DNA of 64,000 bases from positions 1 through 64,000 of the forward strand of contig JAGAPT010000021.1 of the NCBI GenBank assembly GCA_017623115.1, given 5' to 3'. Positions 24,902-60,853 of this stretch are shown piece after piece. Made by a program: the position numbers and the translations under genes. The first letter of the stretch is position 1. Each line of letters starts with the position of its first letter. The notes beneath the pieces are model-generated. The model was not told where the DNA came from, searched no databases, and saw only the letters and a program-made list of their open reading frames with translations. Source of the stretch: Alistipes sp. Its GTDB lineage: Bacteria > Bacteroidota > Bacteroidia > Bacteroidales > Rikenellaceae.

Positions 24902-25717
24902 ATGAAGAATTTTAACGGAAAAACCGTCGTGGTGACGGGTGCTTCGTCGGGGATTGGCGAGGCGTTGGCACGTGAATTTGCCGAATTGGGAGCCAATGTG
25001 GTGATGGGAGCGCGCAGCATTCAGAAGTTGCAACTCATTGCTGGCGAGATTCGCGAGAAGGGGGGCAAGGTGGCCTACTGTGGCGTGGATGTCGTCAAGG
25101 AGGAGGAGTGCAAGGAGCTGATTGATACCGCCGTGAAGGAGTTTGGCGGGGTCGATGTGCTGATTTGCAATGCCGGGCTCTCGATGCGAGCCTTGTTTGA
25201 TGATTGCGATTTGCAGGTACTGCATCGCCTGATGGATGTGAACTTCTGGGGTACGGTGAACTGCTGTAAATATGCACTTCCCTACCTGCAAGAGGCGAAG
25301 GGTTCGATTGTCGGTGTCTCGTCGGTAGCCGGTCTGCATGGCCTGCCGGGTCGCACGGGTTATTCGGCTTCGAAATATGCCATGACCGGATTCCTCGAGA
25401 CGCTTCGCATCGAGAACCTGAAAAAGGGGCTGCACGTGATGGTGGCCTGCCCGGGATTTACCGCCTCGAATGTCCGTTTCTCGGCCTTGACGGCTGATGG
25501 CACCCAGCAGGGGGAGACCCCACGCGATGAGGCGAAGATGATGACTCCCGAGGAGGTGGCCAAAATCATTGTGCGAGGTATTCGTCGTCGCAAGCGTCTT
25601 TGTCTGATGGAGATTGAGGGGCGAGCCACTCATTTCGTGAAGAAGTTCGCACCCGCTTTCCTCGACAAGATGTTCTACTATGTCATGTCCAAAGAGCCCA
25701 ACTCCCCCTTTAAGTAG
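24902..25717 (+). CDS. SDR family oxidoreductase
   Basis: 271 residues. Classical SDR features: TGASSGIGEALARE at the N-terminus, CNAG (LICNAGLSM), catalytic Ser in GVSSVAGL, and YSASK. The C-terminal part (TPEEVAKIIVRGIRRRKRLCL, VKKFAPAFLDKMFY) is like the DltE/11-beta-HSD-like group that often act on lipids or ketones. Substrate unknown. It is the last gene of the plus-strand run; a palindromic repeat starts 1 bp after its stop. Confidence 0.88.
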   Translation: MKNFNGKTVVVTGASSGIGEALAREFAELGANVVMGARSIQKLQLIAGEIREKGGKVAYCGVDVVKEEECKELIDTAVKEFGGVDVLICNAGLSMRALFDDCDLQVLHRLMDVNFWGTVNCCKYALPYLQEAKGSIVGVSSVAGLHGLPGRTGYSASKYAMTGFLETLRIENLKKGLHVMVACPGFTASNVRFSALTADGTQQGETPRDEAKMMTPEEVAKIIVRGIRRRKRLCLMEIEGRATHFVKKFAPAFLDKMFYYVMSKEPNSPFK

Positions 25718-25718
25718 C

Positions 25719-25827
25719 ATTTTCGAAGGGTGATTTCTGCGTTATGCTCGGTGAGAAAATGCTCACATACGTCGGTATGCTCCGCTTTTCTCCCCATCGC
25801 AAGCCTTGAAATCCCCGCTTCGAAAAT
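25719..25827. repeat. Long imperfect palindromic element (copy 1)
   Basis: A 109-bp palindrome. Pairing arms from outside in: ATTTTCGAAG (25719-25728) with 25818-25827; GATTTC (25732-25737) with 25808-25813; GAGAAAA (25753-25759) with 25786-25792; CATAC (25766-25770) with 25775-25779, with GTCG as the tip. The internal loops TGCTCA and CGCAAGCCT are shared with the copy at 54924. It begins immediately after the SDR stop and may act as a transcript end or mRNA stabiliser. Confidence 0.85.
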
Positions 25828-25845
25828 CCTACTTCGGATGAGTGT

Positions 25846-25901
25846 AGGGTGATTTCTGCGTTACGCTCGGTGAGAAAATGCTCACATACGTCGGTATGCT
25901 C
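25846..25901. repeat. Truncated second copy of the palindromic element
   Basis: These 56 bp repeat 25727-25782 with a single substitution (the T at 25744 is C here), then end abruptly at the terminator of the PfkB-family kinase gene. The right half of the palindrome is absent, so this is a half element, probably from unequal exchange or a broken insertion. Confidence 0.9.
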
Positions 25902-25902
25902 A

Positions 25903-25943
25903 ATAAAACAACGAGGGATGTCCATTGGACATCCCTCGTTGTT
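25903..25943 (-). terminator. Terminator of the pfkA-kinase transcript
   Basis: A perfect 17-bp stem (25907-25923 with 25927-25943) with a 3-nt loop. The minus strand runs on into TTTTATTG. It lies 19 bp behind the stop of the PfkB-family kinase and could also stop plus-strand transcription from the SDR run. Confidence 0.88.
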
Positions 25944-31199: not shown

Positions 31200-31249
31200 G
31201 GTGGAGTTTTTGGGAGTTTTGGGAGTTTTAGGAGATTTGGGGAATCTCT
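31200..31249. repeat. 9-bp repeat array (GGGAGTTTT family), site 1
   Basis: About five 9-bp units on the plus strand: a GGAGTTTTT-like unit, then GGGAGTTTT twice, AGGAGATTT and GGGGAATCT. It lies between the divergent promoters of the PspC operon and the PUL. It shares unit sequence and period with arrays at 55100, 55193 and 57656. Confidence 0.8.
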
Positions 31250-55023: not shown

Positions 55024-55099
55024 TCCCCAATCTAAACCGTTTATATGAAAAAGGAGTACCGCAAGGTGCTCTTTTTTTTTGGAGGGGATATTGCATGAA

Positions 55100-55157
55100 T
55101 TTTGGGAGGATTGGGAGGATTGGGAATTTTGAGAGGCTTGGGAATTTTGGGAGTATT
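55100..55157. repeat. 9-bp repeat array (GGGAGNTTT family), site 2a, G-rich strand
   Basis: Six or so 9-bp units such as GGGAGGATT (twice), GGGAATTTT (twice) and GGGAGTATT in 9-bp register on the plus strand. The C-rich array begins 35 bp later, and the two could pair as a long hairpin in an RNA. Confidence 0.75.
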
Positions 55158-55192
55158 GCATAGAAGTCTCAAAGTGCTTTGACTCCCCAACT

Positions 55193-55291
55193 TCTCAAAT
55201 GTCTCAAATGTCTCAAATCTCCCAAATCTCCCAAATCTCCCAAACCTCCCCAATTTCTCAAACCTCCCCAATTTCTCAAACCTCCCAAAGG
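55193..55291. repeat. 9-bp repeat array (TCCCAAATC family), site 2b, C-rich strand
   Basis: Eleven consecutive 9-bp units with no slippage: TCTCAAATG twice, then TCTCAAATC, TCCCAAATC twice, TCCCAAACC and variants to TCCCAAAGG. On the minus strand four GGG runs with 6-bp spacers (complement of 55221-55250) form a canonical G-quadruplex motif. Confidence 0.9.
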
Positions 55292-56737: not shown

Positions 56738-57534
56738 GATTGGGTGGTGTTAGAGGCGCAGAGGCGACGCAGGAAATCGAGCGACACCCGATTGAAGAAT
56801 CGCTTGTTGTCGACATTGCAGACGTGCCCTGCTTCGGGAACGATCACCATCGACGCCCATTGTCCGGCTTGTGCGGCTACAAGTTGCACCTGTGGCAGGA
56901 AGAGGTAGTCGTCTTGCCCCATCAAATAGAGCGTGGGGATGGCGATATGCTCGGCAAAGAGGCGTTTGATACGGCTGTTGAGCTGGTCCCCCAGCGTGAG
57001 CCAACGCAGAAAGTTTTCGAACGACAGCCGCTTGGCATTGCGCAGGAAGAGCTGCATCGAGTGGCCATAGCGGCGTTGCGGGATGATAGCCTTGGCGATG
57101 AACCATTTGAGCAGGCGGTAGGGCACGATGTGCTTGGTGCAGTCGGCGACACGCAGCAATACGCGCGACTCCCAGCTCAGCTCCGTCACGGCACCGGCCA
57201 GGACCATCGACTCGACACGCTCGGGGTGCAGTTCGGCCAAAACCCGCACAACGATGCTACCCAGAGAGAGCCCCATGTAGTGCGCCTTGCGGATGTTGAG
57301 GTGGTCGACAACCTCCATCACCTGCTCGGCCGCTGTCTCAAAGTCGAAATGCTTGTTCAGTATCTGCAAGACCGAAGACTCACCATGACCCACTAAATCG
57401 ATGAGCAGCAGGTTGTAGTGGCGCGAGAAATCGCCCACCTGACGATACCACACCTCGCTGCTGCCACCTGCGCCGTGTAACATCACGACCCAAGGGGCTT
57501 CGGTGTGCTTCTGAAAAGTCTTGTAGTGCAGCAT
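56734..57534 (-). CDS. Alpha/beta-fold hydrolase
   Basis: 266 residues, cytoplasmic. MLHYKTFQKHTEAPWVVMLHGAGGSS gives the oxyanion loop; LIDLVGHGESS and GLSLGS (nucleophile Ser at the elbow) follow, and MGQDDYLFLP and AGHVCNVDNK provide acid and base. The ATG at 57534 is preferred over a TTG at 57546. A minus-strand TATCTTTG box ends 9 bp upstream, giving a near-leaderless mRNA. Substrate unknown; coupled to the HhH gene. Confidence 0.87.
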   Translation of the reverse strand: MLHYKTFQKHTEAPWVVMLHGAGGSSEVWYRQVGDFSRHYNLLLIDLVGHGESSVLQILNKHFDFETAAEQVMEVVDHLNIRKAHYMGLSLGSIVVRVLAELHPERVESMVLAGAVTELSWESRVLLRVADCTKHIVPYRLLKWFIAKAIIPQRRYGHSMQLFLRNAKRLSFENFLRWLTLGDQLNSRIKRLFAEHIAIPTLYLMGQDDYLFLPQVQLVAAQAGQWASMVIVPEAGHVCNVDNKRFFNRVSLDFLRRLCASNTTQS

Positions 57535-57543
57535 AATCGGACG

Positions 57544-57574
57544 CAAAGATACAAATAAGTGAGGGCAAAAGCAA
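57544..57574 (-). promoter_or_regulatory. Promoter of the hydrolase-HhH transcript
   Basis: On the minus strand TTG (57574-57572), 20 bp, TATCTTTG (57551-57544). Partial -33 box. The start of RNA would be within a few bases of the ATG at 57534. Confidence 0.5.
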
Positions 57575-57655
57575 GTTTACTTACATTTTGCCGAGCAGGA
57601 GTATCGAAGACGAAGTCAAAGATCGAAAAAATAGAAAAACACGGGGGTGGGCTGT

Positions 57656-57701
57656 GGGGGAGATTTGGGAGTTTTGGGAGTTTTAGGAGTTTTGGGAGGG
57701 G
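57656..57701. repeat. 9-bp repeat array (GGGAGTTTT family), site 3
   Basis: Five units on the plus strand in 9-bp register: GGGAGATTT, GGGAGTTTT twice, AGGAGTTTT and GGGAGGGGT, preceded by extra G. It abuts the outer end of the sdhB tail repeat block. Confidence 0.82.
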
Positions 57702-57723
57702 TAGATTGCTTGCCATGTCCAAC

Positions 57724-57753
57724 AAAAAAGAGAGCCTGAAAGCTCTCTTTTTT
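57724..57753 (-). terminator. Terminator of sdhB tail copy C
   Basis: A 12-bp stem AAAAAAGAGAGC (57724-57735) with 57742-57753; loop CTGAAA. Nearly the same hairpin as copy B but unlike the native one. Confidence 0.85.
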
Positions 57754-57896
57754 TGATACACAAACGATGGTTTAGTCCTGAATCTTTGCAGCCAGGAATT
57801 CACGGTTGAGGCGAGCCAATCGCCCCCTTGACAAGGGGGAGGGGGGGATGTGAAAAACAATTGCGCGTATCGCGCAGATCGTTCGCCATATCCAAC

Positions 57897-57928
57897 AAAA
57901 AAAGAGAGCCCGAAAGCTCTCTTTTTTT
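57897..57928 (-). terminator. Terminator of sdhB tail copy B
   Basis: A 13-bp perfect stem (57897-57909 with 57916-57928) with loop CCGAAA and A/T feet on both strands. Confidence 0.85.
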
Positions 57929-58071
57929 GTTGCACAAACCGATGGTTTAGTCCTGAATCTTTGCAGCCAGGAACTCACGGTTGAGGCGAGCCAATCGCCC
58001 CCTTGACAAGGGGGAGGGGGGATGTGAAAAACAATTGCGCGTATCGCGCAGATCGCTTGCCATGTCTAACA

Positions 58072-58105
58072 AAAAACGAGTGGCCAGATTTGACCACTCG
58101 TTTTT
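58072..58105 (-). terminator. Native terminator behind sdhB
   Basis: AAAAACGAGTGG (58072-58083) pairs with 58094-58105, loop of 10 nt, T-run on the minus strand (complement of 58071-58076). It is 16 bp behind the true sdhB stop. Its stem sequence differs from those of the tail copies. Confidence 0.88.
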
Positions 58106-58121
58106 GCGTATGCCAATCGTA

Positions 58122-58865
58122 TTAGTCCTGAATCTTCGCGGCCAGGAATTCACGGTTCAGGCGAGCGATATGCGCGATGGAGATACCCTTCGGGCACTCG
58201 GCCTGGCAAGCACCCGTGTTGGTGCAGTTACCGAAGCCCAGCTCATCCATCTTGGCAACCATTGCCTTGGCACGGCGAGCACCCTCGACGCGACCCTGCG
58301 GCAACTTCGCCAGCGACGATACACGAGCAGCTACGAAGAGCATGGCCGAGCCGTTCTTGCAGGTAGCAGCGCAAGCACCGCAACCGATGCAGGCAGCAGC
58401 ATCCATCGACTCATCGGCATCAGCCTTCGGAATCGGAATTGCATTGGCATCGGGCACCGAGTTCGTGCGTACCGAAACATAACCTCCGGCCTGCAGAATC
58501 TGGTCGTAAGCACCACGGTTTACAACGAGGTCCTTGATGACGGGGAAGGCAGCCGAACGCCACGGCTCGATGGTAATCGTATCGCCATCCTTGAATTTAC
58601 GCATGTAAATCTGGCAGGTCGTGGCAGCCTGGCCGGGGCCGTGTGCCAAACCGTTGATGTGCAACGAGCACATACCGCAGATACCCTCACGGCAGTCGTG
58701 GTCGAAAGCCACGGGCTCCTTGCCGGCATGTACGAGGTCGTTGTTCAGAATGTCGAGCATCTCAAGGAACGAGGTGTCGGCCGAAATATCTTTGACCTGA
58801 TAGGTCTCGAAGGCTCCCTTCGATTTTGCGTCCTTCTGACGCCATATCTTTAAGGTGAAATTCAT
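58122..58865 (-). CDS. sdhB: Succinate dehydrogenase/fumarate reductase iron-sulfur subunit
   Basis: 247 residues. The [2Fe-2S] loop is [15 protein letters not shown] with the third Cys in ATTCQ; the second domain has [14 protein letters not shown] and [14 protein letters not shown] for the [4Fe-4S] and [3Fe-4S] clusters. It passes electrons between the flavoprotein and the membrane cytochrome. The last 14 codons ([14 protein letters not shown]) are copied twice downstream with only synonymous changes. It is the last gene of sdhCAB and is 41 bp behind sdhA. Confidence 0.97.
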
Positions 58866-58906
58866 AATTTCAAATGGTAATTAAAGTGTTGTACGTCAAA
58901 AGTGAA

Positions 58907-60853
58907 TTAGTCTTTGTAGTTACGCTGCTTGCGCTCCGTCTCCTCGTAGATGAGCGGCTCTTTCGTCAACTCGGGAGCCTCATCCATACCCTTGTACTCC
59001 CAAACGGCAGCATAGGAGAACTCCTCATCGTGACGCAGGGCCTCGCCCTCCTCGGTCTGGTGCTCCGAGCGGAAGTGTCCACCGCACGACTCGGCACGAT
59101 TCAGTGCATCGCGAGCCATCAGCTCACCCAACTCCAGGAAGTCGGCCAGGCGCAGAGCCTTCTCCAACTCAACATTGAACGACATCGGATCGCCAACGAC
59201 CTTCACATCCTTCCAGAACTCCTTGCGCAAAGCCTGAATCTCGACGATAGCCTTCTCGAGCGACTCCTTCGTGCGAGCCATGCCGACATTCTCCCACATG
59301 ATGTGGCCGAGTTTCTTGTGGATGTCATCTACCGACTGCTTACCATTGATCGACATGAGCTTGGCAATCTTCTCCTTCACGGCCTTCTCGGCCTCCTCGA
59401 ATGCGGGGGTATTCGTATCCACCTTCGGAGCCTGAATCTTGGCTGCGAGGTAGTCGCCGATGGTGTAGGGCAGTACGAAGTAACCGTCGGCCAGACCCTG
59501 CATCAGGGCCGAAGCACCCAGACGGTTGGCACCATGATCCGAGAAGTTGGCCTCACCGATGGCATACAGGCCCGGGATGGTGGTCATCAGGTTGTAGTCC
59601 ACCCAGATACCACCCATCGTGTAGTGCACGGCGGGGAAGATCTGCATCGGCTCCTCGTAGGGGCTTACGTCGGTAATCTCCTCGTACATGTCGAAGAGGT
59701 TGCCGTAACGCTGCTTGATGATATCCTTACCCAGACGCTCGATAGCGGTCTTGAAATCGAGGAATACGGCCAAACCGGTCTCGTTGACACCGAAGCCTGC
59801 ATCGCAACGCTCCTTGGCGGCACGCGAAGCGACGTCGCGCGGTACGAGGTTACCGAAGGCGGGGTAGCGACGCTCCAAGTAGTAGTCGCGATCCTCCTCC
59901 TTGATGTCCGACGGTTTGAGCGTGCCGGCACGCAGGGCCTTCACATCCTCCAACTTCTTCGGTACCCAGATACGACCGTCGTTACGCAGCGACTCCGACA
60001 TAAGCGTCAGCTTCGACTGCTGCGTGCCGTGTACAGGGATACAGGTGGGGTGAATCTGCGTGAAGCAGGGGTTGGCGAAGCCGGCACCCTTGCGGTAGCA
60101 CTGGAACGCGGCCGAGCCGTTCGAGCCCATGGCGTTGGTCGAGAGGAAGAAGACATTACCGTAGCCACCCGATGCGATGACCACAGCGTGTGCACCGTGA
60201 CGCTCAATCTCACCGGTTACCAGGTTGCGGGCGATGATACCGCGCGCCTCGCCATTCTCGACAACCACGTCGAGCATCTCGTGACGCGGATAGCTCTTTA
60301 CCGAGCCGGCAGCAATCTCCTTGTTGAGGGCTGCATAGGCACCCAGAAGAAGCTGCTGACCCGTCTGGCCTCGCGCATAGAAGGTACGCGATACCTGTGC
60401 GCCACCGAACGAGCGGTTGGCCAACAGACCACCATACTCACGTGCAAAGGGAACGCCCTGAGCAACGCACTGGTCGATGATGAGGTTCGAAACCTCGGCC
60501 AGGCGATAGACATTGGCCTCACGTGCACGGTAGTCGCCACCCTTGATCGTATCGTAGAAGAGGCGGTATACCGAGTCGTTGTCGTTCTGGTAGTTCTTGG
60601 CTGCATTGATACCGCCCTGAGCGGCAATCGAGTGGGCACGACGGGGCGAGTCCTGAATGCAGAATACCTTGACGTTGTAGCCCAACTCGCCGAGCGAAGC
60701 GGCTGCTGCGCCACCACCCAGACCGGTACCGATGACGATGATGTCGAGCTTACGTTTGTTGGCCGGGCTCACGACCTTGATGGCTGCCTTGTGGTTGCTC
60801 CACTTTTCGGCAAGTTTGCCCTGCGGGATTTTAGCATCTAATTTGAAAGCCAT
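58907..60853 (-). CDS. sdhA: Succinate dehydrogenase/fumarate reductase flavoprotein subunit
   Basis: 648 residues. FAD-binding [15 protein letters not shown] near residue 36, the covalent-FAD His in [16 protein letters not shown], and the substrate-site HPTCIPVHG and [13 protein letters not shown]-like segments are present. The length and the [10 protein letters not shown] motif suit the Bacteroidota/epsilonproteobacterial fumarate-reductase type (class B with a single cytochrome subunit). It reduces fumarate to succinate during fermentation and can run in reverse. Confidence 0.96.

Follow-up and report, generated by a model that had tools for sequence, protein, structure and literature searches.

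Short DNA modules appear to replace the ends of essential genes while leaving these genes intact, behind tRNA as well as protein genes, in many species of Alistipes. The window analysed is a stretch of 64,000 nucleotides (positions 1 to 64,000 of contig JAGAPT010000021.1, Alistipes sp. assembly GCA_017623115.1; genome G000 below), in which the 3' end of sdhB is found three times. The observations are the anatomy of the modules at sdhB, the occurrence of a common core at many gene 3' ends, tails which change past a sharp boundary, an excess of synonymous differences, and one inverted arm which fits a foreign gene. We are somewhat inclined to believe that gene-end modules are transferred from species to species and pile up at the gene, and that ordinary tandem duplication adds to the arrays. 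We infer that entry is site-specific, and that the direction of change is gain at the gene rather than loss.

The sdhB array of the window

The sdhB gene (58122-58865, minus strand; NF005746, 417 bits, cut-off 243) encodes the iron-sulfur subunit of succinate dehydrogenase/fumarate reductase, and is flanked by sdhA upstream and by an alpha/beta hydrolase gene downstream. Its last 14 codons and the stop (58122-58166, the functional tail B1) recur on the minus strand at 57947-57991 (B2) and 57772-57816 (B3). The stops, at 58122, 57947 and 57772, are spaced by 175 and 175 bp; the period is 175 bp in the tails and 174 bp in much of the remainder. All three tails encode the same amino acid sequence, the changes at the four variable codons being synonymous throughout. 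The gene differs from the first copy at four codons (Leu, Glu, Ala, Ala) and from the second at three, and the two copies differ from each other at one (Glu). The first-pass annotation had described an sdhB 3' end present three times at an exact 175-bp period, with synonymous changes only, and both stops and codon comparison confirm it.

On the minus strand, to which all the elements belong, the order is sdhB, T1, A', E1, B2, T2, A', E2, B3, T3. A is the sdhB stretch just upstream of, or overlapping, the start of the duplicated tail (58162-58181); an inverted copy of it lies after the terminator, and matches by eye at 16 of 18 nt in the window. B1 is followed by a terminator hairpin of the ACGAGTGG type (T1, 58072-58105), by an imperfect inverted copy of A (A'1, 58043-58063), and by a C-rich palindromic core with a 5' hairpin (E1, 57997-58051; 52 bits with model R2, see below). 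Next to B2 reside a terminator of the GAGAGC type (T2, 57893-57932), a degenerate inverted copy of A (A'2, 57869-57889) and a second C-rich palindromic core with a 5' hairpin (E2, 57822-57877; R2, 50.9 bits). B3 is followed by a GAGAGC-type terminator, a tandem relative of T2 (T3, 57724-57753), and by a remnant of the inverted copy at the array end (A'3, 57703-57716). The palindromic insert is present twice, at about 57992-58063 and 57817-57889. Every unit had been credited with a terminator and two palindromes. Each tail does have its own intrinsic terminator, but the palindromes hold for two of the three units, since the short remnant alone follows the third tail. An Rfam search of positions 57000-59000 of the window gave four matches, all under the family cut-offs. 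Tandem repeats of 9 bp, of the GGGAGTTTT type, lie between genes at 57658-57698, 55097-55289 and 31203-31243.

A chance origin of the sdhB tail copies is ruled out by two controls. Shuffled tails gave no copies (0/1440) at 72 sdhB loci. Among 349 predicted genes in 462 kb of the window's genome the longest exact direct copy of the last 60 nt of a gene in the next 450 nt measured 16 nt, a result from which sdhB itself is absent, apparently filtered out via an overlapping antisense ORF. Inverted tails at gene ends in general showed no excess in the 349 genes over a control in which a few genes were paired with themselves or with neighbours. An assembly artefact is unlikely, because a three-tail array is found also in G127, a genome assembled as a single 3.4 Mb contig. 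Many arrays are located at or near contig ends (L157, L254, L255, L258, L263, L264, L266, L268, L311); draft assemblies thus seem prone to break at these places, which makes the copy numbers lower bounds.

Repeated sdhB tails within the genus

The initial sample included the 30 best-scoring SdhB loci of the genus, the window's own among them. To these 42 loci were added, two via element matches and 40 chosen by hand, several for a known core. One or more tail copies were identified at 19 of the 72 parsed loci (24 copies in total), a figure which is not a prevalence, the loci being partly selected for element matches. The layout of the window is found at sdhB also in G020, G024, G027, G088, G100 and G008. 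Empty sites, which the first-pass annotation had proposed to look for, have been identified in the close relatives G034 and G147, whose sdhB has a single tail and no core. G140 carries a core at sdhB without a tail copy. Most tail copies agree with the C-terminus found in the lineage that carries them (AAKIQD, SAKFKD, SAKFED, RAKLRD). Changes in the copies are not limited to adenines, which makes a diversity-generating retroelement less likely. In a MAG labelled Bacteroidetes bacterium Dive96_bin10.164 (L104:3703-3980) a second copy of the sdhB end lies 232 bp on; it spans more codons and has a similar terminator, and a C-rich core was not seen there.

Exchange of gene ends

Twenty-three tail copies were scored over 14 codons each, excluding the stop and leaving out L343, which has an indel. 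Gene and copies differ by 62 synonymous and 19 non-synonymous codons (62/81). Non-synonymous differences are missing in 15 of the 23 copies, one of which (G178, L238) is identical to the gene. The synonymous fraction observed, 0.765, compares with a mean of 0.23 and a maximum of 0.39 under random substitution, and with a mean of 0.64 and a maximum of 0.753 in 2000 trials under a half-constrained null, in which half of the differences fall on the constrained gene side. The excess is large over a neutral copy, and small over the half-constrained model. Given this excess, divergence was seemingly under coding constraint, and most of it seems to date from a time when both tails acted as functional gene ends. 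Between 3 copies of the der tail 6 codon differences were counted, none of which changes an amino acid. Against such a history, some sdhB copies have decayed, as in L032 (4 changed residues), L337 (5, stop included), G008 (2), the second copy of G023 (2) and the distal B3 of G027 (3, one a stop). Decay is milder in G024 (2 changed residues), where a remnant also counts among the decayed distal copies, and in G020, G088 and G065 (1 each).

Two species pairs, G027/G034 and G100/G020, have sdhB bodies 98-99% identical, and differing tails and terminators. G027 and G034 show 8 differences in nt 1-671, none of which in 355-671, and 9 in nt 672-744, 7 of which in 702-744; their terminators are unrelated. 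The differences at 672 and 693 are each private to one species. The two have base 690 in common and are unlike at 7 of 43 nt from position 702 onwards, which places the switch of G027 within nt 691-702, the region where tail copies start. In the second pair 11 differences in 701 nt are followed by 7 in the last 43. SdhB ends are intact in species with exchanged tails. In the comparison with sdhB of related species, a further check proposed at the outset, tails and terminators differ as a unit past a sharp boundary; the argument from this boundary rests on the two close species pairs only.

The comparison was extended to pairs drawn from 71 complete sdhB genes, which share species and are not independent. 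At body divergence of 5% or less, tails differ on average by 1.0 nt in the 6 pairs with no arrays (1.6 expected from the body), by 7.7 nt in the 3 pairs with one array species and by 7.3 nt in the 3 with two; for these six array pairs 1.5 differences are expected from the body. The tail exceeds every other window of the gene in four of the six, and no excess is seen in L023-L336 and L330-L338. At body divergence of 8% or less, the tail is the most divergent 45-nt window in 4 of the 16 pairs that include one array species, in 8 of the 22 that include two, and in 0 of 21 without arrays.

Within 130 nt past the stop, exact inverted matches to the sdhB stretch reach 13 nt or more in 9 of the 19 array species, 7-10 nt in the other 10 (8 nt in the window), and no more than 11 nt in 52 non-array species. 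In G027, A' matches its own sdhB over 8 nt and sdhB of G147 over 20 nt, the best of the 71 others. The inverted runs of G008 (20 nt) and G179 (22 nt) follow the codon variant of their own gene. One may argue from these latter cases that tails and inverted arms are kept for function, for example as nucleic-acid structures at gene ends. This we judge very improbable: A' is probably seldom transcribed, as it lies past the T-run of the terminator, related species do without the whole array, and some copies decay.

The stretches between stop and terminator group into clans. The T1 clan of the window comes first in G000, G020 and G027, and second in G024; the T1 stretch of the window resembles the first stretches of G027 and G020 more closely than its own T2 and T3. 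Plain tandem duplication predicts that all units are mutual copies, terminators included. Yet, T1 is unlike T2 and T3 in G000, and first and second units are unlike also in G024 and G008. B2 and B3 of the window, along with T2 and T3, are tandem relatives of each other, and units of some other arrays are similarly alike. The distal units of the window plausibly represent the native sdhB end. G147 shares with them the CTC codon and the terminator type, but is not closer to G000 in sdhB than G020, both being 92% identical. Ungapped distances upstream of sdhB were out of register in several species, and were left out for those.

Much of the same data is explained by homologous recombination between tail repeats, which is the main and a serious rival. 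Old tandem arrays would change by recombination within and between species, a distal tail could become that of the gene, and the core would be a fragile site, no site-specific enzyme being called for. The tails are repeats of 20-45 bp, and the tandem relatedness of B2/B3 and T2/T3, as the decayed distal copies (G027 B3, second copy of G023, remnant of G024), fit well with this scenario; a deletion between B1 and B2 would give the empty sites of G147 and G034. The earlier statement that slippage or recombination alone would not explain synonymous-only divergence was too strong, since recombination between tails of arrays of different species could. However, front and distal modules of one array frequently lack relatedness (G000.1 has its nearest relatives in G027.1 and G020.1, G000.2 being more distant), and the switch of G027 either coincides with the first base of the repeat or precedes it. 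We regard recombination alone as quite possible, short of probable, and keep to the passage of modules between species as the reading to be preferred.

A genus-wide family of C-rich cores

A mobile unit restricted to sdhB was discarded, as cores and terminator pairs have been found at the ends of other genes. Searches with the sdhB insert gave strong matches only at sdhB, in six genomes, weaker rows being mostly terminators. The family was reached through terminator pairs in other genomes, which led to rpmA and to a tRNA-like end, and then to covariance models. Model R1, built on 11 cores, has matches in 86 of 180 genus genomes (E<=0.01). Model R2, built on 34, gives up to 29 matches per genome (E<=0.001; 29 in G136, 28 in G088), and none in 8 of 24 tested genomes (G047, G059, G075, G084, G109, G114, G123 and G148). 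Among the R2 matches listed (189 in 30 genomes, E<=0.001), 79 have a neighbour within 400 bp, mostly at 90-220 bp, a few of the close pairs being opposite-strand matches; under random placement 0.1 of 20 would have a close neighbour. A model run over 295 Bacteroidales genomes with stricter filters recovered the window's genome and, among the 294 others from across the order, 8 with a single match each (E 3e-6 to 8e-5).

Cores reside at the ends of tRNA-Gly (gcc, ccc), tRNA-Leu, tRNA-Arg, tRNA-Lys and tRNA-Thr genes, and of tmRNA (window's genome), rpmA and der (the G152 gene corresponds to TIGR03594). The repeated tail at a further core locus is presumably that of RNase Y. By eye and match length, the unit anatomy is recognized at tRNA-Gly, tRNA-Thr, rpmA and der, and partly at tRNA-Lys and tmRNA. 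Repeats at tmRNA and at rpmA of G020 contain the terminator and hardly any gene tail, and at tRNA-Leu and tRNA-Arg only inverted arm and core have been seen. Of 17 RNA-gene loci tested, 12, two of which come from different contigs of a single genome, carry direct tail copies of 18-27 nt, and the inverted arm, 8-14 nt long at RNA-gene loci, beats all 100 shuffles in 10 of 17. With respect to the gene, the core is not oriented at sdhB as it is at tRNA-Gly. In the window's genome, cores with E<0.05 are found at sdhB, tmRNA, both tRNA-Gly genes (gcc and ccc) and a tRNA-like end on C47, near tRNA-Pro (C23) and a tRNA-like remnant (C3), and, without a visible tail copy, on C38, C6 and C60. Similarly, lone cores with no tail copy by eye occur at L300, L301, L305, L307, L312, L313, L315 and L316. 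The arrays at tmRNA of the window's genome and at rpmA of G091 consist of plain tandem units with near-identical terminators, as expected from recombination between repeats; recombination gives no account, however, of a conserved core and an inverted arm at so many gene ends.

In an alignment of 34 sequences, each of the 170 cells of the core stem is paired. Both-side changes are seen in 2 of 5 pairs, and neither these nor the pair types exceed what is found in shuffles. The core could be a palindromic repeat of the REP or MITE type residing near terminators, and tail copies by-products of template switching at long hairpins. The paired stem agrees with this, as do some loci where gene end and terminator are joined in one long stem. 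Against it, template switching copies the local gene, so that a tail or A' fitting a foreign gene is not expected, and the Y1 transposase family PF01797, to which the REP-associated ones belong, is present in only 2 of the 180 genus genomes, and not in that of the window. A repeat of this type is an improbable source of the arrays, and an origin as RAYT-mobilized REP elements was discarded on the same count of transposases.

A model for module spread

A module is made of a gene tail (B), a terminator (T), an inverted copy (A') of the stretch just upstream and a palindromic core (E). If modules pass between species, those at sdhB would originate from sdhB of related species, hence tails would differ mostly by synonymous changes. 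A module may insert at a constant position within the end of the gene, bringing both tail and terminator; homologous recombination or slippage between direct repeats may then duplicate or delete units. In the window, the front module B1-T1-E1 belongs to the clan common to other species, and B2/B3 are related through tandem duplication. A recombinase acting in trans on core and inverted arms is plausibly involved.

The array had been first interpreted as the product of serial integration, each event bringing a replacement tail. In favor of this are the switch of tail and terminator as a unit, the coding constraint, the empty sites, and the cores at tRNA and tmRNA ends. The 3' ends of tRNA and tmRNA genes are usual targets of integrases. 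As in site-specific integration, a direct repeat of the target 3' end marks the far boundary and the gene end is preserved. In contrast, one of the two extra units of the window looks like an ordinary duplication, second and third tails being close tandem relatives, terminators included, and integration itself is an inferred step. That the arrays belong to an unnamed class of gene-free integrative modules of Alistipes, about 90-220 bp long, which enter the 3' ends of essential and RNA genes at a fixed point, provide a foreign working gene end, stack in order of arrival and are served by a trans recombinase reading arms and core, is advanced tentatively, as a somewhat doubtful extension.

The 175-bp unit has no room for an integrase. 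Longer elements between tails, which the first-pass annotation had proposed to look for, were not seen at the loci examined, and a phage or viral source was set aside, as four exact-pattern scans of viral contigs gave 0 matches. At tRNA-Leu(tag) of G143 (L256:1467-2322) two cores 795 bp apart enclose a 127-aa ORF, possibly cargo. The ORF has no Pfam or NCBIfam match and is present in 1 of 180 genomes; as such an orphan, it lends no support to a role as cargo.

Relation to known elements

The closest precedent is given by the 178-bp repeats found behind tyrV in E. coli (tyrT/tyrV, rttR). In E. coli K-12 three repeats spaced by 178 bp each carry the last 19 bp of the tRNA, and the last one reaches 19 bp into tyrV. 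As in Alistipes, a tandem unit lies behind a gene and contains its 3' end. The E. coli unit has a 10-nt inverted match to the tRNA, which is within the shuffle range (maximum 12), and a C-rich core was not seen there by eye at the one locus examined. The Alistipes family differs in that protein genes are involved too, loci are many per genome, and tails are exchanged. The E. coli repeats have an older literature, from which no paper was among the matches listed; among the matches listed no title or abstract describes the core family either. Short extragenic palindromes, several per genome, are shared with REP/REPIN elements mobilized by RAYTs, but the Y1 transposase is absent in 178 of 180 genus genomes, and we know of no REPs that carry gene tails. 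To our knowledge, small units that lack genes, reside at protein genes and have exchanged tails are known neither from the tyrV repeats of E. coli nor from the islands of Dehalococcoides.

The serial ssrA islands of Dehalococcoides are stacked behind a gene 3' end with a 20-bp direct repeat of the tail at the boundary, are kilobases in size and, in many instances, carry a serine recombinase module (PMC3146451). The Alistipes units, mostly 90-220 bp long, are unlike the islands as portrayed in that account. ICEs target conserved genes and tRNAs, and an element end can restore the 3' end of the target gene, the function of which is kept because the element supplies that end (PMC3715440). In contrast to ICEs as outlined in that source, a unit of 175 bp is too short to accommodate integrase or transfer genes.

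If the model is correct, a common genus of gut bacteria has essential genes whose ends are exchanged through tiny DNA modules, and a record of arrival order is left behind each gene. Alistipes would then offer a system with many loci and many species for the old puzzle of tRNA-tail repeats (E. coli tyrT), and codon changes at gene ends would have to be regarded with caution, as they can stem from transfer and not from mutation.

Additional repeats

Other repeats were observed in the same genome. Behind a gene which by eye looks SDR-like (24902-25717), a palindromic element containing GCTCACATACGTCGGTATGCTC recurs at 119 bp within positions 25720-25905 of the window. It is flanked by an imperfect inverted repeat, and similar sequences are found after rpmA in other Alistipes (L193, L195). 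On C13 of the window's genome (L220:14423-14689) a stretch of 144 nt is repeated at 123 bp.
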